Positions 5,420 through 56,480 of a stretch of DNA of 64,000 nt are shown piece by piece (positions within the stretch are counted from its first letter, which is position 1; every line of letters begins with the position of its first letter). The stretch spans positions 86,883,888-86,947,887 of the forward strand of contig NC_084796.1 of assembly GCF_963169125.1 (NCBI RefSeq), given 5' to 3'. The DNA comes from Humulus lupulus. Lineage: Eukaryota; Streptophyta; Magnoliopsida; Rosales; Cannabaceae. The notes beneath the pieces were generated by a model. That model had not been told where the DNA came from. It was given only the letters and a program-made list of their open reading frames with translations, and did not search any database. The position numbers and the translations under genes are program-made.

Positions 5420-8360
5420 TGCACGAGCCTGGGCACCTAGGCGCGACAGAGGAGTGGCCTCGCGAGATGGGATGGTGCGTGTAACGCCTTAACTCCAGGG
5501 ACCATTATGGTGTGCCTTGTAAACAGTGCTAAACTCGCTAATCGAGTTATTTGGCCAAAATCGTGTATCTAAGTATGATTAGCAATTTAGGGGTTAAAAA
5601 TTTTGGTTAAGATATAACGTTTCATTAGAACGTTTAATATATACATTGGGATCCCAAAATATAATTTTAGAGTCTACTACAAGAAAATATTTACAACAGG
5701 CCGATCTATGCGGCAAAACAGGGTTTAACCCTAGTTCCTCTTCAAACCTCGGCCATGGTGGTTGAGCAGCTGCATATGTACACATCATCACCTAAGCTCT
5801 CCAACTCAAGGATGGTCCGGCTTTCTTTTGCCTTTACCTGAACGACATAGCACCCGTGAGTCGAAGCTCAGCAAGAAAACTTAATATGCTCATGAACAGT
5901 AATAACATGTCATCAAGTCATAAGGCACACGCCTAGCAGATATAGACCTATTCCAGCAAGCAATAGATCCACGTAATGTTGAGTATAACACATCAACCAA
6001 TGACCATAATAGTCATCCAGGGCTTTTAGCCCAAAATAGAAATGTAATGTTGAGTATAACACATCAACCAATGATCATAATAATCATCCAGGACTTTCAG
6101 TCCAAACAAATAGGTGACAGACGCAAAAGTCACTGGGTTGGGTATAGCTAGCCTTGTGACGATAGGGTCACCGGGGCTTAACAGACAAGTGAACTTTTTA
6201 TTAGTTCAAACAAGATAGGTGCATGGTGACTAGTCACCAACATAACCTTCCTCATGACCATAGCGTCATAACCTTGGAACATTGTTCCCTAGCCATGTGA
6301 CAAACAGTCACCTGGGCCTTAGGCCCTGGCTCTAGTAACTAGTCTTAGACTAGGCAAGCGCTTATAAGTTCATCGACCTTAGGGTTGGTTTAGCATTAAT
6401 GATTTAGATCCATTCAATGCTGATATCGATTAGATCTAAACTTCATTTGGCCCTGCGTTCATGACGCTATGCCATTTCTGACTCTTAGGTCAGTATCCCT
6501 GACTAGTCAGTGCCATATACAAGTAAGCAATGCCACCAAACATATATCACATATCCAATATCCAAGTACAAGTCATTAAGCATGCTTACTTAACAAATAC
6601 TAGCACAATTAGGATCATGCATAAACACAGAGGCTCAAGCTCTGAACAATATCATACTCAGTATACAAAGCATGTCCTAATCACATGTTTCTCGTGCATC
6701 ATATGCATCATATTTAACCACTTGACATGCCTCAACAATAATCATGCATGCAAAATTTAATAATCCAACATGCATCAATAATAACCATGCATGTCACATA
6801 TACACAGGGTGCAATTTTCTTACCTTAGATTCGAGCTAGATTGAATAAAAGAACGACCCTTGAGAACGATCAACTCTTAGTCCTTTAGCGGTCACCTAGT
6901 CATAACCAAATACAGGACACCATCAATAAAATGATAATCATGGGTTCCCAAACTAAGATCTAGCCTCCGGGACATCAATCCCCACTAATCCGGGTAGTAA
7001 GAACGATCCTGAGGCCTAAAAGCATGTTCCCGGGGTCAAAACGCACAAACAGGCTCAACCCTGCTCAAGGGATGTGGCCCTGGCACTTTGGGCTGCGACC
7101 CCCAGCCACTCGAGAAGCAAGGGCTGCGACACCCAACATCAAGGGCCGCGGCGCCCAGCAAGCACAAAACTGCCCCACCTGCTACTTCGAGCTAGGGCCG
7201 CAGTGCCCAAGAACAGGGTCGCGGCCCCCAACCCAGAGCCATCCCCAAACACGATTTTCAACAACCCAAAGCCTCCAAAATCATGCCTAAAAATTACCAA
7301 ATCATCAAATCAAAGTTCCCAAGCTTCCCAATGGTCCAAAACCATCAAAATCCAAAGCTCAATCGAACCACAAACTCAACGATTCACAAAATCCAATTCA
7401 AAGCTTAGAAACTCTAAAAACTCAAAACTTAAACTTAGATTACCTTCGATTGGGTTGTTTCTCATCAAATCCTTTGGTTAGGAAGCTTATAATCTTTCCT
7501 AGGATCGCTATGCCTCGATCCTCGCTTGATTCCGACTCCTAGAACTCGAGATTTCTTCAAAAAGGCTCCGAACGGTAAAATGAGCTAACGAAGGAGAGAG
7601 GAAATGTTTTCTAACGTACGTTCTATCTGACAAGCTACTTCAAGCTTAAGTAACCTCAAATAAAACCTAGTGCTCGGGGTCCCGAAAACACCCCCGGGGA
7701 CATTATAGTCAAAACTTCCAGAATTTCCTCCTGACCTCAAATACTCCCAATTTATCATCAAATAAACATTCTTATTACCCAATAATCGACCCCGTTATGA
7801 CAAAACCGCTAACTCATAATATAAGATTGTCTCATGCCGAATAGCTCGAATATATCTCCATAGTAATGAAATCTCATTCACAAATTACAATATGCACCCA
7901 AATATACAAATATGCCCTCAACAGGCCAAATGACCAAAATGCCCTTATAATTATAAATACACCCATATGAATGCATTTATTATCATATGATAATATAATT
8001 CACATAAAAATGCATATTATCATTAAATAGCATCATAATTCAATTATGGTCCTCCCGGCCTCCTAATCAAGGTCTTAACCCTTATTAGGAAATTCGGGGC
8101 ATTACAGTGCGCGTTCCTCGGCACCTAGGCGCGGCAGAGGCGTGGCCTGCGAGGCATGGCCTTGTGAGATGGGATGGTGCATATTCCTGGGAACCTAGGT
8201 GCGGCAGAGGCGTGGCCTCGCAAGATGGTGCATGGTCCTGGGCACCTAGGTGCAGCAGAGGCGTGGCCTCGCGAGACGCTACGTGGTCCTGGGCACCTAG
8301 GTGCAGCTAAGGCGAGGCCTGCGAGGCATGGCCTCGTGAGACGGTGCGCGGTCTTGGGCA
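5420..8360. repeat. GC-rich minisatellite in the element A LTR, split by the solo LTR
   Basis: Degenerate units carry GGGCACCTAGGTGCGGCAG and AGGCGTGGCCTCGCGAGA, spaced about 50-66 bp apart, at 5420-5479 and again at 8107-8360. Everything between (5480-8106) is a later insertion. The ORFs seen here in several frames are by-products of the repeat. Confidence 0.7.
5480..8106 (-). mobile_element. Solo LTR of the Tekay/Del family, 2627 bp
   Basis: On the plus strand it begins TGTAACGCC and ends GGGCATTACA. It is flanked by a perfect 5-bp target duplication GTGCG (5475-5479 and 8107-8111). Its left end is the reverse complement of the right end of the LTR at 53550-56171, so it is in minus orientation. 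It holds no coding region. The apparent ORF at 7074-7481 covers the LTR's GC-rich island. A single LTR with intact duplications indicates LTR-LTR recombination that removed the body of the element. Confidence 0.9.
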
Positions 8361-10172: not shown

Positions 10173-12480
10173 TGTAACGACCCAAAATCGCTAATAAGGC
10201 TTAAGGGCCTTGATTAGTGTGCCAGGAGGGCATGTTGGGATTTATGTGTGATTTTATGAGTTAAATGCATGGTTATGATTTAAAGCATGCTATATGACTA
10301 ATTGAACATTCGAGATGCATGACTACGTGGTTAGTATGCATGTTAGGTGAAATAAATATGCATGTGGACCCCGTTTGCATGATAGGGGTAAATTGGTAAT
10401 TTTAGCCCGCTGAGGGCATATATGTGATAATTGTATCCTGTGTATTGTACCACGTGAGTGTGGTGTTTTTATTGTGATGCACGTGCCGAGACGGTCCTAG
10501 AGAGCAAATTAACTTAAAAATCACAACGGGATTTCTATACCCGGCTCGGGAGGAGCCCAGGGGTACCTCGGGAATTTTATGGCTAAGTTGAGATTTAGCG
10601 GGTAATGGTTATTGGAGATTTAGTAACCTGGGTAACCATTAGTTACTGCTGAGAGTAACAAGTTCTAGGTAGAAAATGGTAGAAATGAAATAGAGGTAAA
10701 AGGACTTAAGTTCCCTTGAGGTTTAGTTAGCAAAGGGTTTCGATGAAGGGGTAAAATGGTCATTTGGCAAGGGGTTTAGACAAATTTGAGCTGTGTTATA
10801 GGGGTACACGGTTTGGGCTTGGCATATATGTTGGGTTTTGATAAAATTAGAAGAGAAGAAAGGAAAAGCTAAAGAGAAGGAAAGTTAGGGCAATGAGAAG
10901 AAGAAGAAGAAGAGAAGTGAAGGAGCTGAAATTTGGAGACTTAGGAGATGAATCAAGGGAGCTTAGGATGGGATTCTCTACTTAAGGTAAGGATTTATGC
11001 ATATTTAAGTTTGATTATGTTTAGAATTGTGAAAATTAAAGCTTGAGTTAAGTTTTTAAAGTTTGAGTTTGAAGTTCCTGATTTTTACAATCTAAGGGTG
11101 GATTGTTGGATATGTTTGTGTTTTGAGCTTGAATCTAGTGTTAATGGGTTGTTAGATGGTTTATAAGAGGTTTTGATTTGATTTTGGGGTTGAGGTATTT
11201 GTTTGGGGTGATTTGGAGAGGTTGAAGCTCGGGAAAAACGCATGGGAAAACCTAGAAAATCTGGGTTCGCGTATGAGCGCCGCGGCCTTGTTCTTGGGCG
11301 CCGCGGCCCTGTTCTTGTTTTCAGTCAGGGGAGCTTTCTGACTTCGCTGGGCTCCGCGGCCCTTGCGGGTAGCACCGCGGCGCTACGCCTTTTTCAGGAT
11401 GGGAAATTTTGCATTTTTGGGCATTTGTTCCAAGGGCTCGGGGGATGTTTCCGATGGATTGTTTTAGGAATTTGGGAGTCCCGAGAGTGTGGGATTGGTC
11501 CCGGGAAGTGGTTATGAATTGATTAGTATTAAAGGATGTTTTATGTGTGTTGTGACTAGGCTATTGGAGAGGCTCGTGCTAGAGGACCGTGCTCGCGGCT
11601 TGAGTGCATCAGGAGGCTCGGAATACAGGTAAGAAAACCGTAACACCCGAGATTAGGGCATGGCCCCACTGTGTGATTGCAGGGCATGGCCCCAGATTGT
11701 ATTATGTGCAAATGTTTAACCTTAAATGAATCATGATGTGTGTGAATGATTATTTCGAATGTACTATATGTGTGATTATACTGAAATGAACGGCAAGGGC
11801 CGAGAGCGGCGTAGGCCGGGTGCGGCAGCGGGGCCGAAAGTAACACTCAGCACATGGGATGCTTATATTCAGGGTGGGACCCAAGGCACATGGGATGCTT
11901 ATATTCAGGGTGGGACCCAAGGGATACATGAGTTATCCTCGCGGTGAGAACCGAAACCCCAGGCTTTGGTAAGGCCTCTGGGGCGGCATGGCCGTGCTTG
12001 TTTATTATGATGGTTTTCCTATTTATCAGTGAATTATGCCAGCTTTATGAATTGCATATGCTATGTATTATTTGGGTTTTCTTGCTGGGCTTCGGCTCAC
12101 GGGTGCTCTGTGTTGCAGGTAAGGGCAATGACTGAGTCGACCAACCATGAGTACGGAGAGCGTGAAGCAACGCGTACATGTTTGGCCTGCCCGACTACTT
12201 GGGTTGGGGGTTTATTCGAAAATGGCTGTAATAATCTATGATTTTTATAACTGATCAATTGTAAACTTATTTTGAGATGTAAATAGTTTTCAAACTTTAT
12301 TTTGGGATCCCAAATGTTTAATACTAGAAGTTTTATTGAAACGACGCATTTTTCTAAGATTACAGCCTTAACTTTTAATTAGTCACACTTTTGTTTAAAA
12401 ACCTCGGTTAGCGAGTTCATTGCACACTGTTTTGTCTTAAAACTCACTTAGTAACGGCTCTAAGGAAGTAGGGCGTTACA
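10173..12480 (+). mobile_element. Solo LTR of the Tekay/Del family, 2308 bp
   Basis: Begins TGTAACGACCC and ends AGGGCGTTACA, with a perfect target duplication CCTCT (10168-10172 and 12481-12485). It has the family landmarks: the AATTGGTAATTT...CCGCTGAGGGCAT block at about 10390-10420, a GC-rich island at 11275-11395, and the CTTCGGCTCACGGGTGCT block at about 12090-12108, followed by a conserved CAGGTAA at 12116-12122. It is about 300 bp shorter than the other copies and clearly diverged, so it is an older or distinct subfamily member. It interrupts the Athila gag. Confidence 0.9.
11851..11922 (+). repeat. Perfect 36-bp tandem duplication
   Basis: The unit starting CACATGGGATGCTTATATTC occurs at 11851-11886 and again, identical, at 11887-11922, inside the solo LTR. 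I do not see it in the other copies of the family in this window. Confidence 0.9.
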
Positions 12481-13110
12481 CCTCTTGTCCTTGAAATTTT
12501 AAAAAAATTTCGGTATGCATAAATTTAATCATTTGACGATTAGAGGGAGTTAAGCCATCATAAAAATATTTTACAAGTCTCCATTTTTCAAAACCATGAT
12601 GAGGACATTTTAATAATAAATATTTATATCTTTCCCAACATTCATAAAACTCTTCATTATCTTTTTGGACAAATTCGAAGATTTCTCTCCTTAGACTATT
12701 AGTTTTAGACATAGGAACAAATTTTAGCAAGAATTTATTATAAAGTTGATCCCATGTGGTTATAGACCCCGTGGAAAGGGAATTTAACCAAGCTTCTAAT
12801 TTGTTTTTTAATGAAAAAGGGAATAATCTTAGTTTGACTGACTCATCAGAAAAATTTTGAAATTTAAATGTTGAGCAAATTTCTAAGAAATCTTTGACAT
12901 GCATGTAAGGATCCTCTCTATATAACCCATAAAAAGATGGCAACAATTGAATGATTGATGGTTTAAGCTCAAAATGGGTAGCATAAGTGGTAGGAAAAAT
13001 AATACATGGAGGAGCATTAGATGAAATAGGTGAAAAATATTCAAGCAAGGTTTTTTAGACACAACATTTTCATCAACATGATTTCTAGTAATATTAGAAA
13101 TTGGTTCCAT

Positions 13111-17700: not shown

Positions 17701-18139
17701 TTATGATGATGTGGCAACATAATGACTTGATATAGGAAGTCAACAACAGGTACATATTTTTTTTCTACATTAATTTCGAATTTAGTTATTATTTTTTTGC
17801 CATAATTAATGTTTTTTCCAACTAATGAGAGATACTAGCTATATTTAGAAATTGACATGCATTTGAAAAATTAAAAGTTTACAATATTATATTTTCATAA
17901 TAAATACATATTTTTTATCAGGTACCCCCTCAAAAAATTTGAAAAAATATTTTTAGAAATATTAATTAACAACTATAAATATGGACCATTAATCTTAATT
18001 CAATAGTTAATAAATATTTTTAGAAATACTAATTAACAACTATAAATATAAACCATTGATCTTGATTTAATCGTTAATATTAAAGAATTATGCTTTTATG
18101 TATATAATAAACAAAGTTTCAAAAGATTAAAAACTTAAA
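17701..18139. other. AT-rich stretch with a 67-bp tandem duplication
   Basis: No coding signal. At 17945-18011 and 18012-18078 a 67-bp unit beginning AAATATTTTTAGAAAT is repeated in tandem with about 10 per cent differences. Otherwise nothing recognised. Confidence 0.6.
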
Positions 18140-18212
18140 TGTCTAAGCCCGGGTTCGAACAGGGACTTCTAGTGTGTGAGACTAGCGTGATAACCGACTA
18201 CACCACCCAGAC
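18140..18212 (-). tRNA. tRNA-Val (anticodon CAC), probably a degenerate copy
   Basis: The minus strand starts GTCTGGGTGGTGTAGTCGG, with an intact D-arm/A box. The anticodon arm is CTAGT-CTCACAC-ACTAG, giving anticodon CAC. The T loop is TTCGAAC with CCGGG as its 3' stem. The acceptor pairs GTCTGGG with CTTAGAC (one extra G-T pair), then discriminator A. Compared with the plant tRNA-Val(CAC) I know, one base is missing around the 5' side of the T stem, which weakens that stem. Length is 73 nt. No T-run terminator is obvious close downstream on the minus strand. It could be a functional variant or a pseudogene. Confidence 0.7.
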
Positions 18213-18965
18213 ATATCTTATTTAGTTGGTTGCTGTCCCAAAATAATTATATCACTAAGAAATTATTAATACATTCTATTATACAATGTATCGATTTCCC
18301 TTTCTAGTTACAAGAAAATTTGAGGGTAGAAATAGAATTTTTGAGGCAACAATTTACAATTTGAGGGATCCTTGATTGGTTGGAAAATTGAGGGTATATG
18401 CTGAGAAAATATGTCTTCAACATTTATTGGAGTGATTTGAGTAGAAATTCTTTCTTTAATTTTAATAGAATGGCTTGGGAAAGTGTTTTCATTTAAATTG
18501 GTTTTTTTTTTTTTTGTGTGTGTGCCTATTTTGGGATTTTATTTTATGAACTCTTATAAATTATGGTGGTACAGTGGCTCAGCTAAAGACAGAGGAATAC
18601 AGAATTGACTCAATGTGTTTATTTCTCGTAATGTTAGTTTATGGAGGTTTTTAAGTGGTGCATCTGATTGTCTCACTCATCCCCTCAAATTTCAGCTCTA
18701 GACAACCGAGGCTGAAAATGACATGCTACAGAAACGTTTGAATTATCTTGTAAAAAAAATTACAAAACAATGGAACCCGTTTTTCGGAAGGATCCATCCG
18801 TCTTCTTTTTGCAACTCATCAATAGAACAAAAGAGATGAAATGTAAAAAAAAAAAAAAGATAGCACAAACTCTTAAATAAACACTTAATATAACTTTGTT
18901 CAGAACTAGACAAATTTGTAAGTAGGTATTTTATTTTATAGATTCCCGGGGAAGTGAGTACTCTA
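18213..18965 (-). other. 3' flank and likely 3' UTR of eIF3g
   Basis: On the minus strand this follows the eIF3g stop codon at 18966-18968. It has A/T-rich tracts, including an AAAAAAAAAAAAAAA run on the plus strand at about 18846-18859, and no coding region. A 3' UTR is expected in its first few hundred bases; I could not fix the poly(A) site. Confidence 0.45.
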
Positions 18966-19024
18966 CTAACTCGTTCTTGGGGTGGCCCATTCCACTCGGA
19001 GAATAAGATTATCATAACCATATC
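18966..19024 (-). pseudogene. TIF3G1: eIF3g last coding segment (C-terminus of the RRM), left in original orientation
   Basis: Reading the minus strand from 19019, the codons give GYDNLILRVEWATPRTS then TAG (18966-18968). This is the conserved end of plant eIF3g, the last strand of its RNA-recognition motif. It is separated from the rest of the coding sequence (now at 20543-22141 on the opposite strand) by a 1.5-kb LTR element. Bases 19020-19024 (ATATC plus, GATAT minus) are the target duplication of that element. The reading phase fits exactly the end of the coding block at 22141. Because the upstream exons are inverted, this piece can no longer be spliced or translated as part of eIF3g at this locus. 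Confidence 0.9.
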
Positions 19025-20542
19025 TATTAGACTATGAAAATACTACAGGGGCTTATTAGTAATTTGTAAGTGGTGTAAAAGCCTATAAATATGTAATTGT
19101 GTAGCTATTATGGGGAGGGAAATGAGATAGTAGAACTTCGGTTCAATTTGGAGTTTGGCACTGACTCGAAGAGTGCATCCCGATACAATTGATGTTGTAT
19201 CAATTGGTGCTTTCATTGAGAGAATTTCATTGAGAGCCCCGCAAAATGACTGACGAAGAGCTTTATGAATTCGCGAGAGCCACACTGAAATCCATAGAAT
19301 TGCGCATGGATCAATTCTTCGATGCTCAACTGAAGGCAATAAAAGTGCATCTCAAAGAGGAATTAGATGCTAGAGTTGAGGGATATTGCTCATCAACAGA
19401 GACATCGATGGCTCCCTCAAGTCCGGCACTGCCTACTTCGCCGAAGGTTGAATCGGTGAGCAACACGAAGCAATTGGAGATGCCTCTTGATCTCGTCTGC
19501 AGCAACATTTCTAATCGATCCGATCCAGGTAGATCGCAATCGATTCCGGTACGATCTACGTTGATGACAGCTTGCAGAGCACTGAAGGCAGAGAAGACGA
19601 TTGTGGCTTCATCGGACATTGTAGATCCTAGATCTGCAGCCATGAATGAAGCTCGAGGAACACCAACACTGAGGAAGATGATCTTAGCTCCAATGATCGA
19701 TGTTAGCTCCGACATTGTCTTCGTTGTTCGTGATTCGAACCAGATTTGGCACGGATCTGGTCGAGTTCATCGTTCGGAGTTTCCAAGCAAAAATGTCGGA
19801 CTCATTCGAAGATTATTAGAGGGAAGGAAAGTGGAGCTTGCCGGGGTAACAGAGTTTGACGGCGATGGACGAAACGGAGTGATTATGGATGGTCGGAGAG
19901 AAGCTTGGTCACGCCGAATAGCGGTAGCAAGTCGGAGGAGCAGCGACGACTCATCTTTGATATGGTATCTCATGAGTTTGTAGTAGAAGAAGAAATATAT
20001 ATATACATATATCTACGTATATGTGTTCATGAGTTTGCTGTAGAAGAAGAAATATATATATATATACATATATCTACGTATATGTGTATATGTTACAGAG
20101 AAATCAAGTAGACAGTCAAGACAACCAATGGAATCTACAAAGGAATTAGCATCATTACTTCAATTTCAATTGTTGAGTTGCTTCATGGTTCCAGCGGCAG
20201 CTAGGCATGTGGAGAAGAAGACCCAAGTGTTACCTAGAAGTCTTATTGAGTTTGGGCTTGGGCTTGCTAAAATGGACCAAAACATAAATAAAAGGGGTGT
20301 TTTTTTAGTTTTATTTTTCAGTTTTACCACCTTGAGGACAAGGTGATTTTGAAGGGTGGGAAAGTGTTAGACTATGAAAATACTATAGGGGCTTATTAGT
20401 AATTTGTAAGTGGTGTAAAAGCCTATAAATATGTAATTGTGTAGCTATTATGGGGAGGGAAATGAGATAGTAGAACTTCGGTTCAATTTGGAGTTTGGCA
20501 CTGATTCGAAGAGTGCATCCCGATACAATTGATGTTGTATCA
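19025..20542 (+). mobile_element. Non-autonomous LTR element (TRIM-like), copy 1, 1518 bp
   Basis: Two 178-bp LTRs (19025-19202 and 20365-20542) begin TGTTAGAC (TATTAGAC in the left one) and end TTGTATCA. A primer site TGGTGCTTTCATTGAGAG is at 19205-19222 and a purine tract TTGAAGGGTGGGAAAG sits just before 20365. Between them is one ORF (19246-19983), and near the 3' end a stretch reading HLEDKVILKGG (about 20329-20358) that resembles the C-terminus of Ty3/gypsy pol, so the element looks like an internal-deletion derivative. Left flank is ATATC and right flank GAAAC: not a matching target duplication, but exactly the reverse complements of the flanks of copy 2. See the inversion finding. Confidence 0.88.
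19246..19983 (+). CDS. Hypothetical 245-residue protein of TRIM-like copy 1
   Basis: Starts MTDEELYEFARATLKSIELR just after the primer site and ends with TAG at 19981-19983. The N-terminal 50 residues are helical and charged, like the start of some retrotransposon gag proteins; no zinc knuckle, protease or polymerase motif is present. The middle is rich in S, T and P (residues about 50-120) and the C-terminus is basic (REAWSRRIAVASRR). The same ORF is open in copy 2 with only a few changes (for example C to F near residue 48 and K to N near residue 67). I do not recognise a family. It may be a gag remnant or a captured host fragment. Confidence 0.5.
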   Translation: MTDEELYEFARATLKSIELRMDQFFDAQLKAIKVHLKEELDARVEGYCSSTETSMAPSSPALPTSPKVESVSNTKQLEMPLDLVCSNISNRSDPGRSQSIPVRSTLMTACRALKAEKTIVASSDIVDPRSAAMNEARGTPTLRKMILAPMIDVSSDIVFVVRDSNQIWHGSGRVHRSEFPSKNVGLIRRLLEGRKVELAGVTEFDGDGRNGVIMDGRREAWSRRIAVASRRSSDDSSLIWYLMSL

Positions 20543-22141
20543 GAAACTAACTTTATTATTTAGGTGAAAATCTATATGTACGCATGCACACGAAGAGCAC
20601 CACACTTCATAACCAGGGCGATGGGGATAACAGACATTGCGCAACCTGCCAAGCTTCGGTGGGGAGAGCTAAATGAAGATGAGGGTGAGGACCTTGACTT
20701 TCTCTTCCTGCCTCGTCAGTTTATTGGACCCAATGAGAATGGAATTAAGAAGGTCATTGAATATAAATTCAACAGTGAGGGTAACAAGGTTAAGATCACC
20801 ACCATCACAAGAACTCGGATGTTAGCCAATGCTCAGCTCAGCAAGCAAGCTATTGAGCGCCGCTCCTGGCCCAAGTTTGGTGATGCAGTGCATGAGAATG
20901 TTGGTAGCAGACTCACCATGGTATCCACTGAGGAGATCATCCTTGAGCGACTTAGGGCTCCTGGTATATCTTTTTCTTGCCTTTTGATTTTGGAAACCAC
21001 CTTTTGTTGTCTAATTGATTAAGGTTTCAGAAATTTGAGATTAGTTTTTTTTGCCGCTGATGAATTTTTGTTCAAGTACTTTTCTTCTGCTGTGAAATTT
21101 AATTCTTTGTGTAGATTTAAGTGGGAGTATATTCAAGGGGGAAATTTGATATTGACTGGTAAATTGAACGTCTGATTGACTTTAATGAAAAGGGTTTGAT
21201 ATTATATGGCATATGGGTTCTCCAGCTGAACTCTTGATCTTTGGATGATATGGAGCTTGAGTATATTTTGAGAATTGAACTTTAGACCATAAATCACAAT
21301 CAAAGTGTCTTGATTGCTGGATCTGTCTCACAGAGGGTTTAGCCCGAATAGCCATTTTTTTTTAACTACTACAATGCTTTACTCATGTAAAGCCTCTGAG
21401 ATTAACCAGAGACTATGAGTCGTGTCATTTATGGTTGAGTGTTTTTCCTTAAATGTTAGAACAAATTACCAATTAATTCAATGATGACATCTTTGTCTGG
21501 CAAATATACTGGATTCTGAAAGTAATGATTTTTGTTAAAATTATTTTACTATGCTAAAATTTGTATTTTGTTTAACTAGTTAAGTGATTGCAATACATGA
21601 AACGAACTATGACTTTGCATATTTAATCTTTCTGTTTTTTAACATTGGAACTATAGGTAGCAAAGCGGAAGAATCAAAGGGTTCAGATCCCCTGAGTGCA
21701 AAAGGTGGTGCTGTTCTCATGGTTTGTAGAACATGTGGTAAGAAAGGTGACCATTGGACATCAAGATGCCCTTACAAGGATCTAGCAGAACCTTCTGAAC
21801 TCTTTGTTGATAAGGGTGGTGCGTCCAAAGCTGCAGCCCCTGGTGGTGCCCCTAGTACAGGAAAGGGAGCATATGTTCCTCCTGGTATGAGAGGGGCGGC
21901 AGCAGCAGAGAGAGGCGGTACTGACATGAGACGAAGGAATGATGAGAACTCTGTTCGGGTCACAAACCTTTCAGAGGATACTCGGGAGCCTGACTTGTTT
22001 GAGCTCTTCCGGCCTTTTGGTGTGGTAAGCCGGGTTTCTGTTGCTGTGGATCAAAAGACTGGAATGAGCAGAGGATTTAGGTTTGTTAACTTTGTTAATC
22101 GGGAGGAAGCTCAGAGAGCCATTAATAAACTTAATGGATAT
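20543..22141 (+). pseudogene. TIF3G1: eIF3g exons 2 and 3, inverted block
   Basis: Encodes most of eukaryotic translation initiation factor 3 subunit G, which helps 40S scanning and reinitiation in the cytoplasm. A likely 3' splice site at 20563 (TTATTTAG) precedes the start ATG at 20621 (MGITDIAQPAKLRWGELNED). Exon 2 runs to 20963, a GT..AG intron is at 20964-21656, and exon 3 is 21657-22141; the phase joins P-G-S-K-A-E-E. Visible parts are the eIF3g N-terminal domain (GPNENGIKKVIEYKFN, SWPKFGDA), a zinc knuckle CRTCGKKGDHWTSRC (CX2CX5HX4C), and the RRM (SVRVTNLSEDTREPDL, RGFRFVNF) up to LNGY at 22141. The remaining 17 residues and stop lie on the opposite strand at 19019-18966. Total 343+485+54 nt gives 293 residues, the normal plant length, with no internal stop, so the break is recent. 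Confidence 0.92.
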
Positions 22142-23657
22142 TGATACAACATCAATTGTATCGGGATGCACTCTTCGAGTCAGTGCCAAACTCCAAATTG
22201 AACCGAAGTTCTACTATCTCATTTCCCTCCCCATAATAGCTACACAATTACATATTTATAGGCTTTTACACCACTTACAAATTACTAATAAGCCCCTGTA
22301 GTATTTTCATAGTCTAACACTTTCCCATCCTTCAAAATCACCTTGTCCTCAAGGTGGTAAAACTGAAAAATAAAACTAAAAAAACACCCCATTTATTTAT
22401 GTTTTGGTCCATTTTAGCAAGCCCAAGCCCAAACTCAATAAGACTTCTAGGTAACACTTGGGTCTTCTTCTCCACATGCCTAGCTGCCGCTGGAACCATG
22501 AAGCAACTCAACACCTGAAATTGAAGTAATGATGCTAATTCCTTTGTAGATTCCATTGGTTGTCTTGACTGTCTACTTGATTTCTCTGTAACATATACAC
22601 ATATACGTAGATATATGTATATATATATATTTCTTCTTCTACAGCAAACTCATGAACACATATACGTAGATATATGTATATATATATTTCTTCTTCTACT
22701 ACAAACTCATGAGATACCATATCAAAGATGAGTCGTCGCTGCTCCTCCGACTTGCTACCGCTATTCGGCGTGACCAAGCTTCTCTCCGACCGTCCATAAT
22801 CACTCCGTTTCGTCCATCGCCGTCAAACTCTGTTACCCCGGCAAGCTCCACTTTCCTTCCCTCTAATAATCTTCGAATGAGTCCGACATTTTTGCTTGGA
22901 AACTCCGAACGATGAACTCGACCAGATCCGTGCCAAATCTGGTTCGAATCACGAACAACGAAGACAATGTCGGAGCTAACATCGATCATTGGAGCTAAGA
23001 TCATCTTCCTCAGTGTTGGTGTTCCTCGAGCTTCATTCATGGCTGCAGATCTAGGATCTACAATGTCCGATGAAGCCACAATCGTCTTCTCCGCCTTCAG
23101 TGCTCTGCAAGCTGTCATCAACGTAGATCGTACCGGAATCGATTGCGATCTACCTGGATCGGATCGATTAGAAATGTTGCTGCAGACGAGATCAAGAGGC
23201 ATCTCCAATTGCTTCGTGTTGCTCACCGATTCAACATTCGGCGAAGTAGGCAGTGCCGGACTTGAGGGAGCCATCGATGTCTCTGTTGATGAGAAATATC
23301 CCTCAACTCTAGCATCTAATTCCTCTTTGAGATGCACTTTTATTGCCTTCAGTTGAGCATCGAAGAATTGATCCATGCGCAATTCTATGGATTTCAGTGT
23401 GGCTCTCGCGAATTCATAAAGCTCTTCGTCAGTCATTTTGCGGGGCTCTCAATGAAATTCTATCAATGATAGCACCAATTGACACAACATCAATTGTATC
23501 GGGATGCACTCTTCGAGTCAGTGCCAAACTCCAAATTGAACCGAAGTTCTACTATCTCATTTCCCTCCCCATAATAGCTACACAATTACATATTTATAGG
23601 CTTTTACACCACTTACAAATTACTAATAAGCCCCTGTAGTATTTTCATAGTCTAACA
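22142..23657 (-). mobile_element. Non-autonomous LTR element (TRIM-like), copy 2, 1516 bp
   Basis: An inverted, nearly identical copy of 19025-20542, with 178-bp LTRs at 22142-22319 (3' LTR) and 23480-23657 (5' LTR). The primer site is altered here: TGGTGCTATCATTGATAG on the minus strand against TGGTGCTTTCATTGAGAG in copy 1. Plus-strand flanks are GATAT (22137-22141) and GTTTC (23658-23662), i.e. not a duplication of each other. The two copies form 1.5-kb inverted repeats 1.6 kb apart around the eIF3g block. Confidence 0.88.
22699..23436 (-). CDS. Hypothetical 245-residue protein of TRIM-like copy 2
   Basis: The same open frame as in copy 1, full length, starting MTDEELYEFARATLKSIELR at 23436. 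Only about two residue differences from copy 1 are visible. Intactness in both copies may reflect recent insertion, or gene conversion between the inverted repeats, rather than selection. Function unknown. Confidence 0.5.
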   Translation of the reverse strand: MTDEELYEFARATLKSIELRMDQFFDAQLKAIKVHLKEELDARVEGYFSSTETSMAPSSPALPTSPNVESVSNTKQLEMPLDLVCSNISNRSDPGRSQSIPVRSTLMTACRALKAEKTIVASSDIVDPRSAAMNEARGTPTLRKMILAPMIDVSSDIVFVVRDSNQIWHGSGRVHRSEFPSKNVGLIRRLLEGRKVELAGVTEFDGDGRNGVIMDGRREAWSRRIAVASRRSSDDSSLIWYLMSL

Positions 23658-24123
23658 GTTTCAATCAATAATTAGTTTAATCATACAATTATATTCACTA
23701 ATTATAACTTAAGACACTGTAAAAACCAGAACAGAAAACTAATGCTATGCAATTACATTCAAATTATGAGCATAACGGATTATCATTACAGCACAACCAC
23801 AAATTGACAACAACAACAGATTAATATCAAATATTTCAGATTCATTAATAATACCGTGAGAGAGCAATCCAATGATAACAGACATAAGCAAAAAATTCAC
23901 AGATTAAGCAATAATTCAGATAACTAATAGCAAAGTCACAGAGCCGAGGGACACTGCAGATTAAGAAAGCTGAACAGCAATAATACCGTGATTAAGTACG
24001 TTTTAGAAATCAATAATACCGTGTGACAAACAGATTTTTTAGAAAAAAAACAAAATCAAAAGCATAGCATAACAAATAGATTATTTAATTAAATAAAAAA
24101 AATCAGATCAAATTTTCAGTTAC
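23658..24123 (-). other. Remaining part of eIF3g intron 1
   Basis: Non-coding and AT-rich, between the GTAACTG donor at 24123-24117 (minus) and the LTR element at 23657. The first five bases (GTTTC, minus GAAAC) are the target duplication whose partner now lies at 20543-20547. Small repeated AATACCGTG motifs occur at about 23851, 23985 and 24015. Nothing else recognised. Confidence 0.6.
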
Positions 24124-24290
24124 CGGATGTGGTCGAGATAGCTGGTGACTCTGAGAGTGAGAAAGAGGTCGAGATCGGAAGATGAACGGAGGAGCTGGTA
24201 GCTGCAACTGACAGTGCCAACGCCGAGGTAGCTGAGGCGAGAGTGGAGTGGAGTGGAGTGGAGTGGAGTGGAGTGTTTAAGGGTTTTTTT
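24124..24290 (-). other. TIF3G1: Probable eIF3g exon 1 (5' UTR)
   Basis: On the minus strand this is a pyrimidine-rich, ATG-free stretch (CCTCAGCTACCTCGGCGTT, then CTTTCTCACTCTCAGAGTCACC) ending CATCCG followed by a good donor GTAACTG at 24123. This is typical of a leading untranslated exon of a plant housekeeping gene, and the position fits the acceptor at 20563 before the inversion. A CACTC microsatellite (24241-24275) lies in it. The exact transcription start is not determined. Confidence 0.6.
24241..24275 (+). repeat. Microsatellite (GAGTG)7
   Basis: Seven perfect copies of GAGTG on the plus strand, CACTC on the eIF3g sense strand, in or just upstream of the predicted 5' UTR. Confidence 0.95.
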
Positions 24291-24855
24291 TCTCAAGCCC
24301 TACCCTACACTATGTGCTCGTTAACGATCACATGCGTTATAACGCTGTTATAGTATCTGAAGCACTGGCTGTTCCCTTTTTCCTCCCAAAAAAACATGGG
24401 AAATTTGAGTATTGATGTGATAAAAGGGTTCTACTCTATCCTACGTGAACATAATATTTTGCTACTATTCTCATTGTTTGCTAAAATAGATACATGAAGA
24501 CCCTCACTCAAGTTCCCCCTCTCTCTTTCATGTCCAAGCTCACCCTCACTCAAGTTCCCCTTCTAATTCCAAGATCTAAATAAAAAAAACAAGGCAGCCA
24601 CCAAGATTGAATTAATCCGGTCGAGCTTTTGAGGTTGTGTTTTATGAAAGATTGAATCCTATCAATGCAAAACAACACTAGGTTTCGGATCTAGAGGCAA
24701 AAATATTATGTGTAAGTATGTTTTCTATAAATGTGGTGAGGAAACTTGCTTATTTATATTGCTTTAACTATTTCGAACAGATCTATGTTTGTATTTTGGA
24801 TTTTTTTTACTGTTTCACAGTCGGATTAGAACTGTTTCACAAAACAGCAAGTATG
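24291..24855. other. Upstream region of eIF3g, no gene
   Basis: AT-rich, with no supported coding region. It should include the eIF3g promoter on the minus strand. A near-repeat of CTCACTCAAGTTCCCC occurs at about 24504 and 24546. Bases 24851-24855 (GTATG) are the target duplication of element B. Confidence 0.5.
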
Positions 24856-26339
24856 TGTGGACGCTCAATATTCCACGCCCATAAAAGAACCAAGACGTGT
24901 GCTAAGGTCCCTTAAAGGCCTAAATGCATGCTTGAGCCACGAGACGCTCGAGCCACCACCCTCTCGCAACGGCCTCGCGTGCCTAGGACTGTGCCTGTGA
25001 GATGACCTCGCGTGCCTAGGCTCACGCCCCAGCGCCCGTGACCTCGCGTCCAAGTCTGCGTGGCCTCGCCTGAGTATCCTCGGCCTCGCGCAACCTCGCC
25101 CGAAGCACCCTCGGCCTCGTGCCCCAGCACCGTGGCCTCGCGTCCGAGCGCGCACGGCTTCGCCCGAGTATCCTCAGCCTCGCACCCCAGCAGGCGTTCG
25201 GCCTCGCACAGCCTCGCCCGAAGCACCCTCAGCCTCGCGCCCCAGCGTCGTGGCCTTGCGTCCGAGCGCGCGCGGCTTTGCCTGAGTATCCTCGGCCTTA
25301 CGCCCCAGCAGGCATTTGGCCTCGTGCAGTCTCGCCCGAAGCACCCTCGGCCTCGCGCCCCAGCAGGCGTTCGGCCTCGCGCCCTGAGCGAACCACGCCA
25401 TCATGTGGCCATGCGAAGGGGGAGGGCCTCATGAAGGGAACTCGTGAGCAGCTAGGAAGCCACGCCATCATGTGGCCACGCGGGGGAGGCCTCGCGAAGA
25501 GGACTTGTGAGCAGCTTGGGAGCCACGCCATCGGGGGGCCACGCGAGGAAGGCCTCGCGTTAGGAGAGTCCCGCCACCGGGGGCTCGCGAGGGAGGCATC
25601 TCGCCTCGCACCCTTAGACATCTGGCGAGGCCGCGTGCTTATCACCTATGCCCGTGGGTGGCCTCAGGGTGCTTCAGGCATCTCGTGCCAAGGACCCGAG
25701 AGCCCCACCTCACGTCACGACCATTACATACACCAAGTGTCCCATTCCCTATACCTTGAGACCCCAATGCTTAGAGGCTCCGGTACGAGTCGAATGGAAC
25801 ATACTGGTACGATCTAGTACTTGGTACGGCTGTTAAGACCCTATATGTCGAGTACGGACACCCATACCAGTGGGGTAGTGGGAATGCTAGGATAAGAGTT
25901 ATGGCCCGTACGTCTACGGCCAGGAGTTAGAGTCGACACCACTACCACCTCTGCCACTATGTCTGTAACCACTCCTCTAACATGGGTAGGGACAAGTAGT
26001 GGAGACATCCTCCTGACACCTGCCCCTGGACTGGACACACAACCACAACCTCTGAAACCACTCTCCTGACAGAGTACTTATGTACCACTTGGTCTCCTGG
26101 ACCACCATGTCCCCAGGGCCATTAGAGCCTATTATAAAATGAACTCTAACTCCACCTGAAAGGGGGTTGGAAAATTTACTGTAGCAAGTGCTTGAGAGTG
26201 AATGAAAGATTGATTTCTCCATTGTTGTTCTGTCATTGTTATTGAGTTATTACATAAGTTTCTACAGCTTTTTTATTGGCTATCTTTACTTGATAATTTT
26301 TTCCAACTCAACTCAGTTGACGAGTTCTCACCGTCAACA
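24856..26339 (+). mobile_element. 5' LTR of element B, 1484 bp
   Basis: TG...CA ends. The upstream half is a CpG-rich array (25083-25390), followed by a unique part and a TATA box (ATTATAAAAT, 26131-26140). It is about 29 bp longer than the 3' LTR, partly because of an extra partial repeat unit of about 55 bp at 25319-25373. The long ORFs on both strands here (up to 232 residues) come from the GC-rich repeat. Confidence 0.93.
25083..25390 (+). repeat. 117-118 bp CpG-rich tandem repeat in the 5' LTR of B
   Basis: Units start GCCTCGCGCAACCTCGCCCG at 25083, 25201 and 25319 (the last one truncated to about 55 bp). Each contains GTGGCCTCGCGTCCGAGCGC and CCCCAGCAGGCGTTCGG. The same array is at 48415-48650 in the 3' LTR. 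Confidence 0.85.
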
Positions 26340-28400: not shown

Positions 28401-31400
28401 TTCAAGGGGGAAAATGACTCGATCACATTCATTGAGGAGGATGCGCGGGGGGTACATTTTCCCCACAACGACCCGCTGGTGTTGACAGTTCAGTTGGCAA
28501 ATATGCGAGTGCATCGGGTCCTAGTGGATAATGGGAGCTCGGTGGACATCCTGTATCGCCCCACCTTGGAAAAGATGGGACTGGGCATTCGTCATCTAAA
28601 GCCCTGCCAATCTTCCCTATACGGATTCACGGGGGACTCAGTGCAACCCCTAGGGATGATCGAATTGGCACTCACCATGGGGGAGCAACCCCGGCAGACT
28701 ACAATCATGGCTAACTTTGTCGTAGTAGATTGTGCATCAGCTTTCAATGCAGTATTGGGGAGACCATCCCTAAGAGAATTGAAAGCCATAACTTCTATAT
28801 ATCACCTGGTTTTCAAGTTCCCAACTCCAGGAGGGGTCGCTAGCATGAAGGGAGAACAGAAAGAAGCAAGGGAGTGCTACAACACCTCACTCCATGCGCC
28901 TGTGAAACCGCGGGAACCAATGGCCATGGTGATACATGAGGCACTACGTGTGCCCGCGGGGGGTCCGCAGGAGCTGGACCCTCGGGTTGTGGAGGAGTCA
29001 AGAGCGGAACCAGTAGAGGAGGTTATAGTAGTGGAAGAACCGTTGAGAAAATTGATGGTAGAAAGAAGCCTGCAGAGTGACGTGAAGAAGGAGTTGATAA
29101 GGTTTTTGAAGGATAATCTGGATGTATTCGCATGGAGTCATGAAGATATGGTGGGTATAGACCCCAGTGTTTTGTGCCACCATTTGAATATCTCCCAGGA
29201 AGCGAGGCCCGTTAGGCAGGAGAGGCAGGCGCTAGACCCAGAAAGGTACGCGGCCTTAAAGGAAGAGGTCGATAAGCTGAAGACCAATGGGTTTATCCGT
29301 GAGTCTTTTTACCCTGTGTGGGTATCGAATCCAGTACTAGTCCCAAAACCAAATGTGAAATGGAGGACCTGCGTCGATTTCTCAAACCTGAATAAAGCTT
29401 CTCCTAAGGACAGCTTCCCGCTCCCGAGGATAGATCAGTTAGTAGATGCGACGGCAGGACATGAATTACTGAGCTTCATGGACGCCTACTCGGGGTACAA
29501 CCAGATTCCAATGAACCCAGCAGATGAAGAGCATACATCATTCATTACGGATAAAGGGCTTTACTGTTACAAGGTGATGCCCTTCAGGTTGAAGAACGCG
29601 GGTGCCACCTATCAAAGGTTGGTCAATAAGATGTTCGCTAACCAGATAGGAAGGAACGTGGAGGTGTATGTTGATGATATGTTAGTAAATACCAAGAATG
29701 CAACAGAGCTCAACAAGGACCTTGGTGAGATGTTTGACACACTTAGGAAGTACCGAATGAAGTTGAATCCCGTCAAGTGCACCTTCGGTGTATCCTCAGG
29801 AAAATTCTTGGGCTTCATGGTCAACTCCAGAGGCATCGAGGCCAATCCTGACAAGATAAAGGCCCTGATAGAGATGAGCCTGCCTAAGAACAAGAAGGAA
29901 GTGCAATGCTTAACAGGAAGGGTGGTGGCCCTTAATAGATTTATTTTGAGGTCAACCAATAAGTGCCTCCCCTTCTTTAACATCCTCAAAGGAATAAAAA
30001 ACTTCGCTTGGGATGAGGAATGTGAGGAGGCATTTATCAAGCTGAAGGAGCACTTGGGGAAGCCACCCCTATTGGCAAAACCTGAGAAAGGCGAGAAGCT
30101 ATACCTCTACTTGGCAGTGTCGGAACATGCCATAAGCGCAACCTTGGTTAAAGGGGAGAAGAAACAGCAACAGCCCGTGTACTATATCAGCAAGCGTTTG
30201 GTGGACGCGGAGAACCGGTACCCAGAGATTGAAAAGTTGGCCTATGCATTGGTTGTGGCCTCAAGGAAGTTGAGGCCCTACTTCCATGCGTACGCAATTG
30301 AAGTTCTCATGGATAGTCCTTTAAGGCAGGTCCTACATAAACCTGAGACCTCAGGGAGGCTATGGTCGATTGAGTTGAGTCAATTCGATATCGTGTATAC
30401 CCCAAGAGCTTCCATCAATGGACAGGTGCTGGCAGACTTTATAGTGGAGTTCACCCGTCAGCTGAATGGAGGAAGAAGTGAAGAAGGGGAGCAGCCTGAC
30501 ATAGAGGAAGAACGAGGCGATCTTGAGGAATGGAGTCTACATGTGGACAGGGCGTCCAATGAAGGAGGATCTGAAGCCGGTATCATGATGACAGGACCCA
30601 AGGGACACAAGATGTATTGTGCTATCCGGTTCGGGTTCGAAGCCTCTAATAACGAGGCAGAGTACGAGGCGCTCCTGGCTGGCTTGCGTTTAGCCCAGGA
30701 GCTAAAAGTGACACGCCTTCATATTTTTAGCGACTCTCAGTTGGTGGTGTACCAAGTGAAGGGGGAATATCAAGCGAGAGGACCCAGGATGGCAGCCTAC
30801 TTGGAGAGGGTGAAAGGCTATCTGGGACGGTTAGCAGCTTATAGCATAGAGCAAATCCCCAGAGAAAGGAATTCCCATGCTGATGCACTCGCGAAGCTGG
30901 CTTCCACCAAGGATGGGGATATCCTGGAGTCGATACCCGTGGAGAACTTGCCCAAACCCAGCATCGTAAGCACGGACGTACATATGATTAGTATCCCAAA
31001 GGAGTCGTGGGCGGAGCCAATTAAAAGATACTTGGAGGAAGGAACCTTGCCTGTGGACAAGAAAGAGGCCCGAAGGTTGGTGTACAAGGCAGCTAGATAC
31101 ACCTTGATAGATGGGGTTCTATACAAGAGAGGGTTCTCAATGCCACTTCTGCGATGTGTAGAGAAGGAGGAGGCGTTAAAGGTACTACATGAGATACATG
31201 AAGGAGAGTGTGGTAACCATGAGAGCGGACCGTCAACGGCTAGGAAGGCCATAAGACAAGGGTATTACTGGCCTTCAATGGAAAAATATGCAAGCGACTT
31301 TGCCAAGAAATGTGACAAATGCCAGAAACACGCTAACTACACTCGGAGGCCCCCAAATGAGTTAACTAGCCTGACCAGCCCCTGGCCCTTCGCTATCTGG

Positions 31401-32071
31401 GGGATAGACTTGATCGGCGCCCTTCCTGCGGGTAGGGGAGGGGCGAAGTACGCAGTGGTAGCTGTGCACTATTTCACCAAGTGGGTTGAAGCGGATCCAC
31501 TCGTGAAGATAACTGCCAAGCACATCACCTCTTTCGTCAACAAATTCATTGTCTGCAGATACGGAGTGCCCTACAAAATTATTTCTGACAACGGCACCCA
31601 GTTTGAGGGGGGGCCTTTGAGGAATATTGTAGGGGAAGGGGGATAAAGAGGATTTTTTCAGCAGTAGTACACTCACAGGCCAATGGGCAAGTGGAGGCCA
31701 TTAACAGGGTTCTTAAAAAGAACCTGAAAACCAAGTTAGAAAGATGAAAGGAGCCTGGGTGGAAGAGCTGCTGAATGTGCTGTGGGCCTACAGAACCACC
31801 CCTCGCACGACCACTGGAGAGTCCCCATTCTCCTTAGCATATGGGTGCGAGGCTGTCCTCCCAGTGGAGATGCAGGTGAGTTCCTTCAGGGTACAGGTGT
31901 ATGGAGACGAGGCCAACCGTGTAGCTCTGGCTGAGAGCCTGAACATGCTAGAAGAGAGAAGGGAAAAAGCACAAATGAGGGTGGCGGTATACCAGCAGTG
32001 CGCAGCAAGGTACTACAACTCGAGGGTGCACGAGAGAACTTTCAGAGTTGGCGACCTGGTGCTAAGGAACG
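28400..32071 (+). pseudogene. pol of Tat element B: protease, RT, RNase H, second RNase H, integrase (N-terminal and core)
   Basis: Protease site VHRVLVDNGSSVDILY at about 28506; DNGSS replaces the usual DTGSS. RT has LPRIDQLVDATAGHELLSFM and catalytic YVDDMLV near 29666. The first RNase H is ordinary Ty3/gypsy type (30085-30440). A second, archaeal-type RNase H follows (30535-30900), with acidic residues in LHVDRAS, NNEAEYEALL, FSDSQLVV and SHADALAKLA; dual RNase H is characteristic of the Tat lineage. The integrase zinc finger is at 31180-31330 (HEIHEGECGNH...CDKCQ) and the core has WGIDLIGA and ISDNGTQF. A frameshift with stops at about 31610-31740 breaks the core before ANGQVEAINR. The 3' end is cut at 32071 by element C, with TSD GAACG. 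Confidence 0.92.
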
Positions 32072-36856: not shown

Positions 36857-39800
36857 TCATTGATAATACTTTCGCAGGTGTTCTCCATTCCAATAGCACG
36901 GAACGAGATCTCCGTTTAGGCGTGCAAGTTTGTAGGTGCCTGGGTGGACTTCTTCAATCTGGTAAGGTCCTTCCCAGTTAGGTCCGAGCACTCCAGCAGT
37001 GGGGTCGCGGGTATTTAAGAAAACTCGTCGTAGCACCAAATCTCAGACGTTGAATTTTCTTCCTTTAACTTTGGAGTTAAAGTACCGGGCGACTTTTTGC
37101 TGGTAAGCAGCAACTCGGAGTTGAGATTTTTCTCGCATTTCGTCGATCGATTCTAGGGACTCCATCATTAACTGGGTGTTCTGGTCCTGGTCGTAAGTTA
37201 AACGCCGATGTGAGGGGGGATCTAACTCGACAGGCAACATGGCCTCATATCCATAGGCCAAGGAAAATGGGGTATGGCCTGTTGCTGTTCGGTGAGATGT
37301 TCTATACGACCATAGGACTTCAGGCAGCTGCTCTGGCCACGCTCCTTTAGCTCCTTCAAGTCTTTTCTTCAGGGTGTCTTTAAGAGTTTTGTTCACGGCT
37401 TCGACTTGCCCATTCGCTTGGGGATGTGCGACTGAAGAAAAACTTTTAATGACCCCATGCCTTTCGCAGAAATCGGTGAATAAATCACTGTCAAATTGGG
37501 TCCCATTGTCTGAAATTATCTTCCTGGATAATCCATACCGGCATACAATGTTCTTGATGACGAAGTCAAGAACTTTTTTGGTCGTGATGGTCGCGAGTGG
37601 TTCAGCTTCGGCCCATTTTGTGAAGTAATCGACTGCCACAACTGCGTACTTTACTCCTCCTTTCCCTGTTGGCAGGGATCCAATCAAATCTATCCCCCAT
37701 ACTGCGAAGGGCCATGGGCTATGCATCTGTTTTAGTTCATTTGGAGCTGTTCGTGGGATCTTGGAGAACCTCTGACATTTGTCGCATCTTCGTACATACT
37801 CCATCAAATCCTCGTTCATTATTGGCCAGAAGTAACCTTGTCTTAGAATCTTTTTTGCCAAACTCTGCCCCCCGGCATGATCTCCGCAGAAGCCTTCATG
37901 CACCTCCCTCATGAGTTCCTTAGCTTTTTCTGGTGTAACGCACCTGAGTAGCGGCATTGAATATCCTCTTCGATACATAACGCCATCGACCAGTATGTAC
38001 CTAGCGACTCGCCTTTGCAGAGTTCTGGCTTTGTTTCTATCTGTTGGTAGTGCACCATTTGTTAGATACTCCAAGTAAGGCGCCATCCATGTATCCTCCA
38101 TTCGAATCTCCATACTGGACTCAGCTGCTTGTATGCTTGGCTTGTTCATTCTTTCCACTGGCACAATGTTCAAAGTGTCAGCGTCCTTCGCGCTCGCGAG
38201 TTTAGCTAAGGTGTCTGCATTTGAATTCTGGTCTCGTGGGATTTGCTGGAGGGTGTACTTTGTAAACTGGGTTAGCAAATCCTTCGTTTTATTCAGGTGG
38301 GCCATCATCTTTAAGCCTCGCGCTTGATATTCTCCTAGGACTTGATTTACGACTAGCTGAGATTCACTGTAAATATCAAGCGTCTTTATGCTCATATCTT
38401 TGGCCATTCTCAATCCAGCTAGGAGTGCTTCGTATTCTGCTTCATTGTTTGATGCCGCGAAGTCAAACCTGATTGCGCAGTGAAATCGATGCCCTTCCGG
38501 CGTTATCAATATCACTCCCGCTCTAGCGTGGGATTCGTTGGATGAACCATCCGTGAATAGCTTCCACGAAGGAGTTTTGTCTTGAGGCATGGGCGCTTCA
38601 GGCTGTTCGCACTGCTTACTGTCTGGGAGTTCGGTGAACTCCGTAACAAGATCGGCCAAGACTTGTCCCTTTATTGCTGCTCGCGGTGAATAAGTTACAT
38701 CAAACTGCCCTAGTTCGACTGCCCACTTTAACAATCTTCCAGCCGCCTCAGGTTTTTGGAGGACTTGTCGAAGAGGCTGGTCGGTTAAAACTATGATAGG
38801 ATGGGCTTGGAAGTAAGGACGCAACTTCCTGGAGGCTAGAATTAAGCAATATGCTAACCTTTCGATTGGAGGATATCTTAATTCTACACCGATCAGCCTT
38901 TTGCTGACATAGTAGACTGCTTTCTGTACGCCTTCTTCCTCCCGTACTAGTACCGCACTAGCAGCAACTTCGGTAATTGCCAGATAAATATACAAAGTCT
39001 CTCCTTAGATTGGTTTTGATAAGATGGGAGGTTGCGCCATATGAGCTTTTAAGGCCTGGAATGCTCGTTCGCAGTCTCTCGTCCATTCAAACTTCTTATT
39101 CCCCCTGAGTAGATTGAAGAATGGGATGCACTTGTCAGTTGATTTCGAGATAAATCTACTCAGGGCCGCGATCCTCCCAGTTAAACTTTGTACATCCTTA
39201 ATCCTCTCTGGCGACTTCATGTCGATCAGGGCTCTTATCTTGTCGGGGTTGGCCTCGATCCCTCTTAAATTCACTATAAAACCCAAAAACTTTCCTGATC
39301 CTACTCCAAAGGAACATTTGAGGGGATTCAACTTCATCCGGTACTTGTTTAGCACATCAAAGCATTCTTGTAGATCCCTCACATGTCCTTCTGCCTTTTT
39401 AGACTTTACCAGCATGTCATCCACATATACCTCCATGTTTGCACCGATCAGCTCCTTAAACATGTGGTTGACTAGCCGTTGGTAAGTCGCACCTGCGTTT
39501 TTCAGCCCGAAGGGCATCACTTTGTAACAGTATAAGCCCGTATCGGTCCGAAAGCTGGTGTGATCCTCGTCAGGGGGATGCATGCTGATCTGGTTGTAGC
39601 CTGAATATGCATCCATGAACGAGAGGATCTCATGTCCTGCAGTTGCATCGACCAGCTGGTCGATCCTTGGGAGCGGGAAGCAGTCCTTTGGGCAGGCTTT
39701 ATTGAGGTCCGTAAAATCCACACAGGTCCACCATTTGCCGTTAGGCTTGGGGACCAGCACCGGATTGGAGACCCACGACGGATAAAACGCCACCCTGATC

Positions 39801-48150: not shown

Positions 48151-48162
48151 CTGGGGGGCAAG
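48151..48162 (+). promoter_or_regulatory. Polypurine tract of element B
   Basis: CTGGGGGGCAAG abuts the 3' LTR start TGTGGACG at 48163. Confidence 0.85.
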
Positions 48163-55700: not shown

Positions 55701-56480
55701 GGGCTATTATTGCTAGGCATGCCTGTTATGATTTGGTAATATGTTATTACTGTTCATGAGCATATTAATTTTTCTTGCTGAGCTTCGGCTCACGGGTGCT
55801 ATGTGGTGCAGGTAAAGGCAAAAGAAATTTGGATCATCCTTGAGTTGGAGAGCTTAGGTGACAATGTGTAAATATGTGGCTGCTCGACCGCCACGGTCGA
55901 GGGTTGAAAGAGGAACTAGGGTTAAACCCTATTTTGCCGCTTAGGTCGGCTGCTTGTAAATATTTTGTTGTAATTAACATTTAAATTATATTTTTGGGAT
56001 CCCAATGTATATGGTAAATGCTTTAGTGAAACGTTGTATCTTAACCAAAAAATTTAACCCTAAATCGCTAATCATACTTAGTTACACGATTATGGCCAAA
56101 TGACTCGATTAGCGAGTTTAGCACTGTTTAAAATGCACACCGTAATGGTCCCTAGAGTTTAGGGCATTACAACAGGTCCTCCATTTGTGGGTTCTGGTAG
56201 GGGTGGAGGCCCTAGTGATCAGAAGAGGAAGGTTCCTGATACCTTCCAAGCTCCAGGTCCTGACAGGTGACCACATGGTATTACAATGGGTCATCAGGGT
56301 GGCTGTGAGGCCTGGAAGACTTATCCTGAGTGCCCTAGGTATAAGAGGCACCATTTGGAGGAGGGTAGGGCAAAGGCATGCTTCTTATGTGGAGCAGTGG
56401 GTCATTTCAAGAAAGACTGCCCAAAAGCAAGAAAGAAAGAACCCAGAAAAGTGGACAGCTCGGCCCCAGCTCGAGTGTTC
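52705..56480 (+). pseudogene. gag of element D, split by a solo LTR
   Basis: ATG at 52705 with a stop four codons later; then the QDDQGQNNRLGQENDQ-type N-terminus. The gag core is at 52937-53305 (WEPLYERFRKQQPLVFEGIA, NVEQWMSMITTILDFM, FREDARIWWEVISQTR, FNEKYYN). A frameshift follows near 53300, the frame resumes (EYALKFDRLAKFA), and a TAG is near 53462. The gene is cut at 53549 by the solo LTR and continues at 56177 with GPPFVGSGRGGGPSDQ, a stop near 56268, and a perfect knuckle [14 protein letters not shown] (56380-56421). Many lesions. Confidence 0.88.
53550..56171 (+). mobile_element. Solo LTR of the Tekay/Del family, 2622 bp, inside gag of element D
   Basis: Begins TGTAATGACCC and ends GGGCATTACA, with a perfect target duplication ACAGG (53545-53549 and 56172-56176). 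Same family and orientation as the LTRs of D. Contains the GC-rich island (54528-54640), a series of AGTCACTCAT repeats (55440-55560), and the conserved CTTCGGCTCACGGGTGCTAT block at about 55782-55801. Confidence 0.93.

Follow-up and report, generated by a model that had tools for sequence, protein, structure and literature searches.

The window (the whole 64-kb stretch of DNA that was analysed) contains, at about 18.9-24.3 kb, a minus-strand eIF3g gene whose 1,599-bp middle part, 20543-22141, is flipped. In window orientation exons 2 and 3 lie on the plus strand, and exon 1 and the tail of the gene lie on the minus strand. As far as the sequence can tell, this arrangement is probably the joint result of three things: the decay of a duplicated gene, two insertions of a TRIM-like element, and an inversion between the two inserted copies. 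The parts of the locus are as follows.

18966-19019, minus strand: last 17 eIF3g codons and stop, original orientation kept
19020-19024, plus strand: target-site copy ATATC of the exon insertion (gene sense GATAT)
19025-20542, plus strand: element A, 1,518 bp; LTRs 19025-19202 and 20365-20542; ORF 19246-19983
20543-20563, plus strand: last (3') part of intron 1, including the target-site copy GAAAC at 20543-20547, 16 nt before the exon
20564-20963, plus strand: eIF3g exon 2, coding from ATG 20621
20964-21656, plus strand: eIF3g intron 2, GT...AG
21657-22141, plus strand: eIF3g exon 3 as far as the insertion, in opposite orientation to exon 1
22137-22141, plus strand: exon-insertion target-site copy GATAT, which is also part of the eIF3g coding sequence
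22142-23657, minus strand: element B, 1,516 bp, non-autonomous; LTRs 22142-22319 and 23480-23657; ORF 22699-23436
23658-24123, minus strand: 5' part of intron 1, ending with target-site copy GTTTC (gene sense GAAAC) at 23658-23662
24124-24290, minus strand: candidate eIF3g exon 1, promoter side, with a GT donor and without an assigned coding frame

The gene parts were placed by tblastn of the 293-aa product against the window. Residues 1-115 correspond to 20621-20965 on the plus strand (100%), residues 115-279 to 21656-22150 on the same strand (E 1.8e-107), and residues 274-293 to 19028-18969 on the minus strand (E 1.9e-07); the remaining three matches had E 6.1 or worse. When 20543-22141 is turned back, the exon order, the phase of intron 2 (20964-21656) and a stop-free frame of 293 codons are restored, and the gene reads 24290-24124, intron 1, 20564-20963, intron 2, 21657-22141, 19019-18966. 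In the product of this gene order Pfam finds both parts that define an eIF3g protein, the eIF3g domain (PF12353, E 9.1e-33) and a C-terminal RRM (RRM_1, E 1.3e-18). The flipped block is bounded exactly by the two inverted LTR elements A and B. A preliminary description of this DNA had proposed a gene in two orientations, its repair by a flip that restores order, phase and frame, and exact bounding by two near-identical inverted 1.5-kb elements, and all of this is borne out here.

The same description had taken exon 1 as coding. Its place on the promoter side and on the minus strand stands, but the exon is probably 5' untranslated, with the 293-codon frame starting at ATG 20621 in exon 2; an alternative in-frame ATG at 20576 would give a 308-residue product. 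We infer exon 1 from a plausible GT splice donor (ACATCCG/GTAACTG in gene sense), the sole basis of this call. At the other end of the gene, about 0.75 kb past the 3' end of the eIF3g coding sequence, lies a tRNA-Val gene (anticodon CAC) at 18139-18213 on the minus strand.

Elements A and B are about 99% identical: 14 substitutions and one 2-bp indel separate them over about 1.5 kb. Their longest common exact run is 299 bp, and adjacent differences are at most 300 bp apart. The 178-bp LTRs start with TGTTAG and end with TATCA or a one-base variant of it; at the left end of element A the terminal TG reads TA. Before the 3' LTR of A there is a purine tract, GAAGGGTGGGAAAG, whose version in B differs by one base. 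Both elements carry an internal ORF of 245 codons, and that of A had no Pfam match at E 0.001 or at E 1. Nine protein relatives of this ORF were found, seven of them from Cannabis sativa. Its identity to the five best C. sativa relatives is 37-42%, and the closest relative, the protein P0121, is 98% identical and is the only close one among the nine.

A rule given in PMC6022998 assigns to TRIM those LTR elements that are shorter than 2,000 bases and have no recognisable domain. By this rule the sequences of A and B class them as TRIM elements. The structural features agree: TG...CA LTR ends (one TG being TA), 5-bp target-site duplications, the purine tract and a putative primer-binding region. 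The elements share with other TRIMs a size below 2 kb, short LTRs (178 bp), the lack of a recognisable retrotransposon domain and the 5-bp duplications, but they differ in carrying a 245-codon ORF whose protein relatives are mostly (7 of 9) from Cannabis sativa. We also considered TR-GAG elements, which are likewise non-autonomous with a single ORF between short LTRs. This identity is not supported: the Pfam hits at E 1 of 11 aligned members, nine relatives together with the ORFs of A and B, include no Gag family. Apart from the dehydrin domain of P0129, all Pfam matches of these 11 members had E 0.035 or worse. P0129 itself, an annotated C. sativa protein, joins an element-type ORF start to a dehydrin domain; it may be a host gene whose first exon is driven by an element, or else the product of an annotation merger.

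The flanks of the two elements carry the record of what happened between them. Element A is flanked by ATATC and GAAAC, and element B by GATAT and GTTTC. Compared in place and in direct orientation, the flanks of A match at two of five positions and so do those of B. Compared across the elements, ATATC with GATAT and GAAAC with GTTTC, both pairs match as reverse complements at five positions of five; assuming equal bases, the chance of both matching is about 1e-6. Since the full matches occur across the elements only, the flanks point to two insertions in opposite orientation, one in intron 1 and one in the last exon, followed by an inversion between them. Element B is then a hybrid, its left flank coming from the exon element and its right flank from the intron element. 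Highly similar inverted repeats at both breakpoints and flanks exchanged between the repeats, with duplications that match fully only across the elements, are seen here and are features expected of a NAHR inversion. Because the target-site duplications are swapped, an exchange between inverted A and B is strongly supported, and recombination between the elements, suggested earlier as the simple explanation, gains backing from these flanks. The crossover point within the elements is not placeable from two copies, the one close relative, P0121, being a protein. LTR similarity was tried as a second witness of the exchange and rejected: each internal difference occurs in one of the LTRs only.

The history that we propose would have begun with a decaying duplicate of plant eIF3g, which received two small, non-autonomous, TRIM-like LTR elements of a single family. 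One copy would have entered intron 1 in gene-sense orientation, at target site GAAAC, 16 nt before the exon. The other would have entered the last exon in antisense orientation, at target site GATAT, where its LTR supplied a stop after Y276. The two copies, 1.5 kb long, inverted and about 99% identical, would then have undergone homologous recombination, which flipped the 1.6 kb between them and left each element a hybrid with one target-site copy from each insertion.

A wrong join made inside the repeats during assembly would equally produce swapped target-site duplications, and the near-identity of A and B over 1.5 kb favours such a misjoin. Both insertions would then be real and the middle part would stand in its original orientation in the plant, the wrong halves of A and B having been connected. 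The assembly flip had been listed among the explanations from the beginning and it stays as a rival, but weakened: with a longest exact run of 299 bp and differences no more than 300 bp apart, accurate reads longer than about 300 bp separate the copies along their whole length, and the 64-kb window has no N. We regard this explanation as unlikely. We rank a true inversion, whether fixed or polymorphic, clearly higher, though short of proof, and the inversion presumably took place in the plant and not in the assembly.

Should the inversion be polymorphic, both orientations would occur, within the species or as a pair of haplotypes, and the window would show one of them. Inversions mediated by repeats are often recurrent, and a human study reports a high degree of recurrence (PMC3961182). 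A single assembled haplotype, however, shows nothing of a second orientation, and the persistence of 14 substitutions between A and B speaks against complete recent homogenisation. In the flip/flop region of yeast, about 53,800 mitoses and 950 meioses are reported to have passed without a change of orientation (PMC9731477). Such a flip-flop state of the locus seems to us quite improbable.

If an inversion between two inserted elements explains the two orientations, then we can ask: Which event broke the gene? The inversion came last, because it needs both elements in place, and it is not the first lesion: the exon insertion had already truncated the frame. This insertion ends the frame after Y276 (LNGY-TGA), where the TGA stop consists of the first bases of the inverted LTR, the end of element B, read in frame. 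Seventeen residues are lost in this way, and the first 16 of them are present in all 120 listed relatives. In its assembled form the locus is thereby unable to encode the complete protein. From RRM topology, the last 17 residues presumably hold the last strand of the RRM. The preliminary description had named the inversion as the cause of breakage, a role that passes to the insertion in the last exon.

The LTRs of the exon element (left of A and left of B) differ at the terminal dinucleotide only. If the crossover lay inside the elements, these LTRs would indicate a recent exon insertion, and about 2.5 substitutions would be expected in the coding sequence since then (95% upper value about 14). 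LTR dating can be disturbed by gene conversion (PMC7251063).

How much change has accumulated in this copy of eIF3g in comparison with its relatives? A protein search gave 1,421 matches at E 0.001 or better and a second one 862 matches; in the best 120 listed of each, none exceeded 82% identity. The four best-scoring relatives (Morus, Senna, Ulmus and Trema) are 80-82% identical to the window protein. Columns were called conserved at 97% or more over the alignment with the best 120 relatives listed. In the window protein 9 of these 159 columns are changed; across the 121 rows the median is 1, and the row with the next most changes has 6. Morus P0001 has 5 changed columns and Trema P0004 has 4. 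Six of the nine changes (L29F, P30L, K67M, G196A, Y242S and G256R) hit residues that are invariant in 120 of 120 listed relatives. G256R alters a glycine of the motif RGFGFV, which we take to be the RNP1 motif of the RRM. Once its exons are ordered, the window copy has the full domain set of plant eIF3g (PF12353 and RRM), but it differs from plant eIF3g in lacking the last 17 residues and in the change of the RNP1 glycine and other invariant residues.

Because so many conserved columns are changed against a median of 1, the RNP1 glycine included, the comparison favours a duplicate, and the window copy is probably a decaying duplicate and not the sole essential copy. This makes doubtful, for the window copy, the earlier view of an essential translation factor broken cleanly. 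Given a recent exon insertion, part of the decay probably predates it, which again favours a duplicate under relaxed constraint. The strength of this argument is moderate: Morus P0001 and Trema P0004 also have several changed columns, the long branch of the window protein is equalled or approached by others in one of the two trees described below, and at the 95% upper value of about 14 substitutions most of the nine changes could in principle postdate the break. An intact eIF3g is presumably present elsewhere in the genome.

The same data bear on another possibility, namely that the plant has no other functional eIF3g and that this one is a heterozygous null, disrupted in a single haplotype. 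Outside the insertion the 293-codon frame has neither stop nor frameshift, and the gene was thus probably under selection until recently. Against this stand the changes at six residues invariant in all 120 listed relatives, among them the RNP1 glycine, and the roughly 2.5 substitutions expected since the insertion (95% upper value about 14): nine conserved-site changes are hard, though not impossible, to place wholly after the break. We consider a heterozygous null very unlikely.

Phylogenetic placement was evaluated in two trees, which had different topologies. In the 28-row tree (27 of the 120 listed relatives) the window protein grouped with Trema (support 93/70) and then with Morus (83/85), neither group being starred. 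Two constrained placements were not rejected in this tree, one with only Morus (p-AU 0.49) and one with five rows of other Rosales (p-AU 0.341). Its branch here is 0.25, close to that of Trema (0.20) and equal to that of Ipomoea (0.25). The 46-row tree (44 of the 120, one entered twice) lacked the Trema grouping: Trema fell among the legumes (84/90), and no starred group holds the window protein, whose branch was the longest (0.32, Trema 0.28). The grouping with Trema and Morus on rather long branches would fit a fast-evolving second copy in that group, although its support is not strong. With the Cannabis sativa relatives of the element ORF, these placements make a source plant close to Cannabaceae likely.

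One more consequence of the arrangement may be imagined. The promoter of exon 1 would now read antisense through exons 3 and 2 and through the 1.5-kb inverted arms, and the hairpin or antisense RNA might silence the element family or a sister eIF3g gene, the orientation toggling by repeated recombination. We mention this idea as highly speculative.

We take the window to be nuclear DNA of a plant. Its eIF3g matches proteins of named plants, and of 48 ORFs of at least 120 aa listed in the window, 10 were scanned and all 10 gave retrotransposon-type Pfam hits. Direct repeats at 24855-25879 and 48162-49157, about 23.3 kb apart, are 94-96% identical in three blocks and contain arrays with 118-bp units; retrotransposon polyproteins lie between them at 28479-31646 on the plus strand and 37043-38995 on the minus strand. 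These repeats resemble the termini of one very large element. Inverted repeat blocks at 5487-5963 and 55686-56163, about 50 kb apart and 83-90% complementary, probably represent two related, oppositely oriented members of a single retrotransposon family. An Rfam match to the plant snoRNA R71 (12591-12697, plus strand, 44.8 bits with a cutoff of 40) lies antisense in a retrotransposon gag ORF (12476-13048, minus strand). Either the R71 family contains sequence of transposon origin, or a transposon here harbours a stretch that resembles a snoRNA.

A literature search found no published report of this locus; the process, inversion between inverted repeats, is well known. A human study examined 22 predicted polymorphic inversions, whose inverted repeats measure 1.6-24 kb, and validated 17 of them; at least one inversion in that study disrupts a potential coding gene (PMC3961182). 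Toggling by inversion is discussed for the flip/flop region of Saccharomyces chromosome XIV (PMC9731477). What is unusual about the case described here is how legible the route is from two insertions of the same element to an inversion: the events can be read from the exchanged 5-bp duplications, and no other genome is needed. The locus also carries two cautions: a gene whose exons point both ways in an assembly is not necessarily misassembled, and such a gene does not have to imply the loss of an essential function. As in the NAHR inversions reported from human (PMC3961182) and Saccharomyces (PMC9731477), the breakpoints lie in near-identical inverted repeats and the intervening segment alone is turned. 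In comparison with the human cases, the repeats here are 1.5 kb, just under the range of 1.6-24 kb, and the segment of 1.6 kb is smaller than the 5.1-226 kb given there (PMC3961182). Unlike in the human and yeast cases, the part of the repeats is played by two small plant LTR elements that inserted independently and whose target sites can still be read. The locus adds a clean case to those known of this process.
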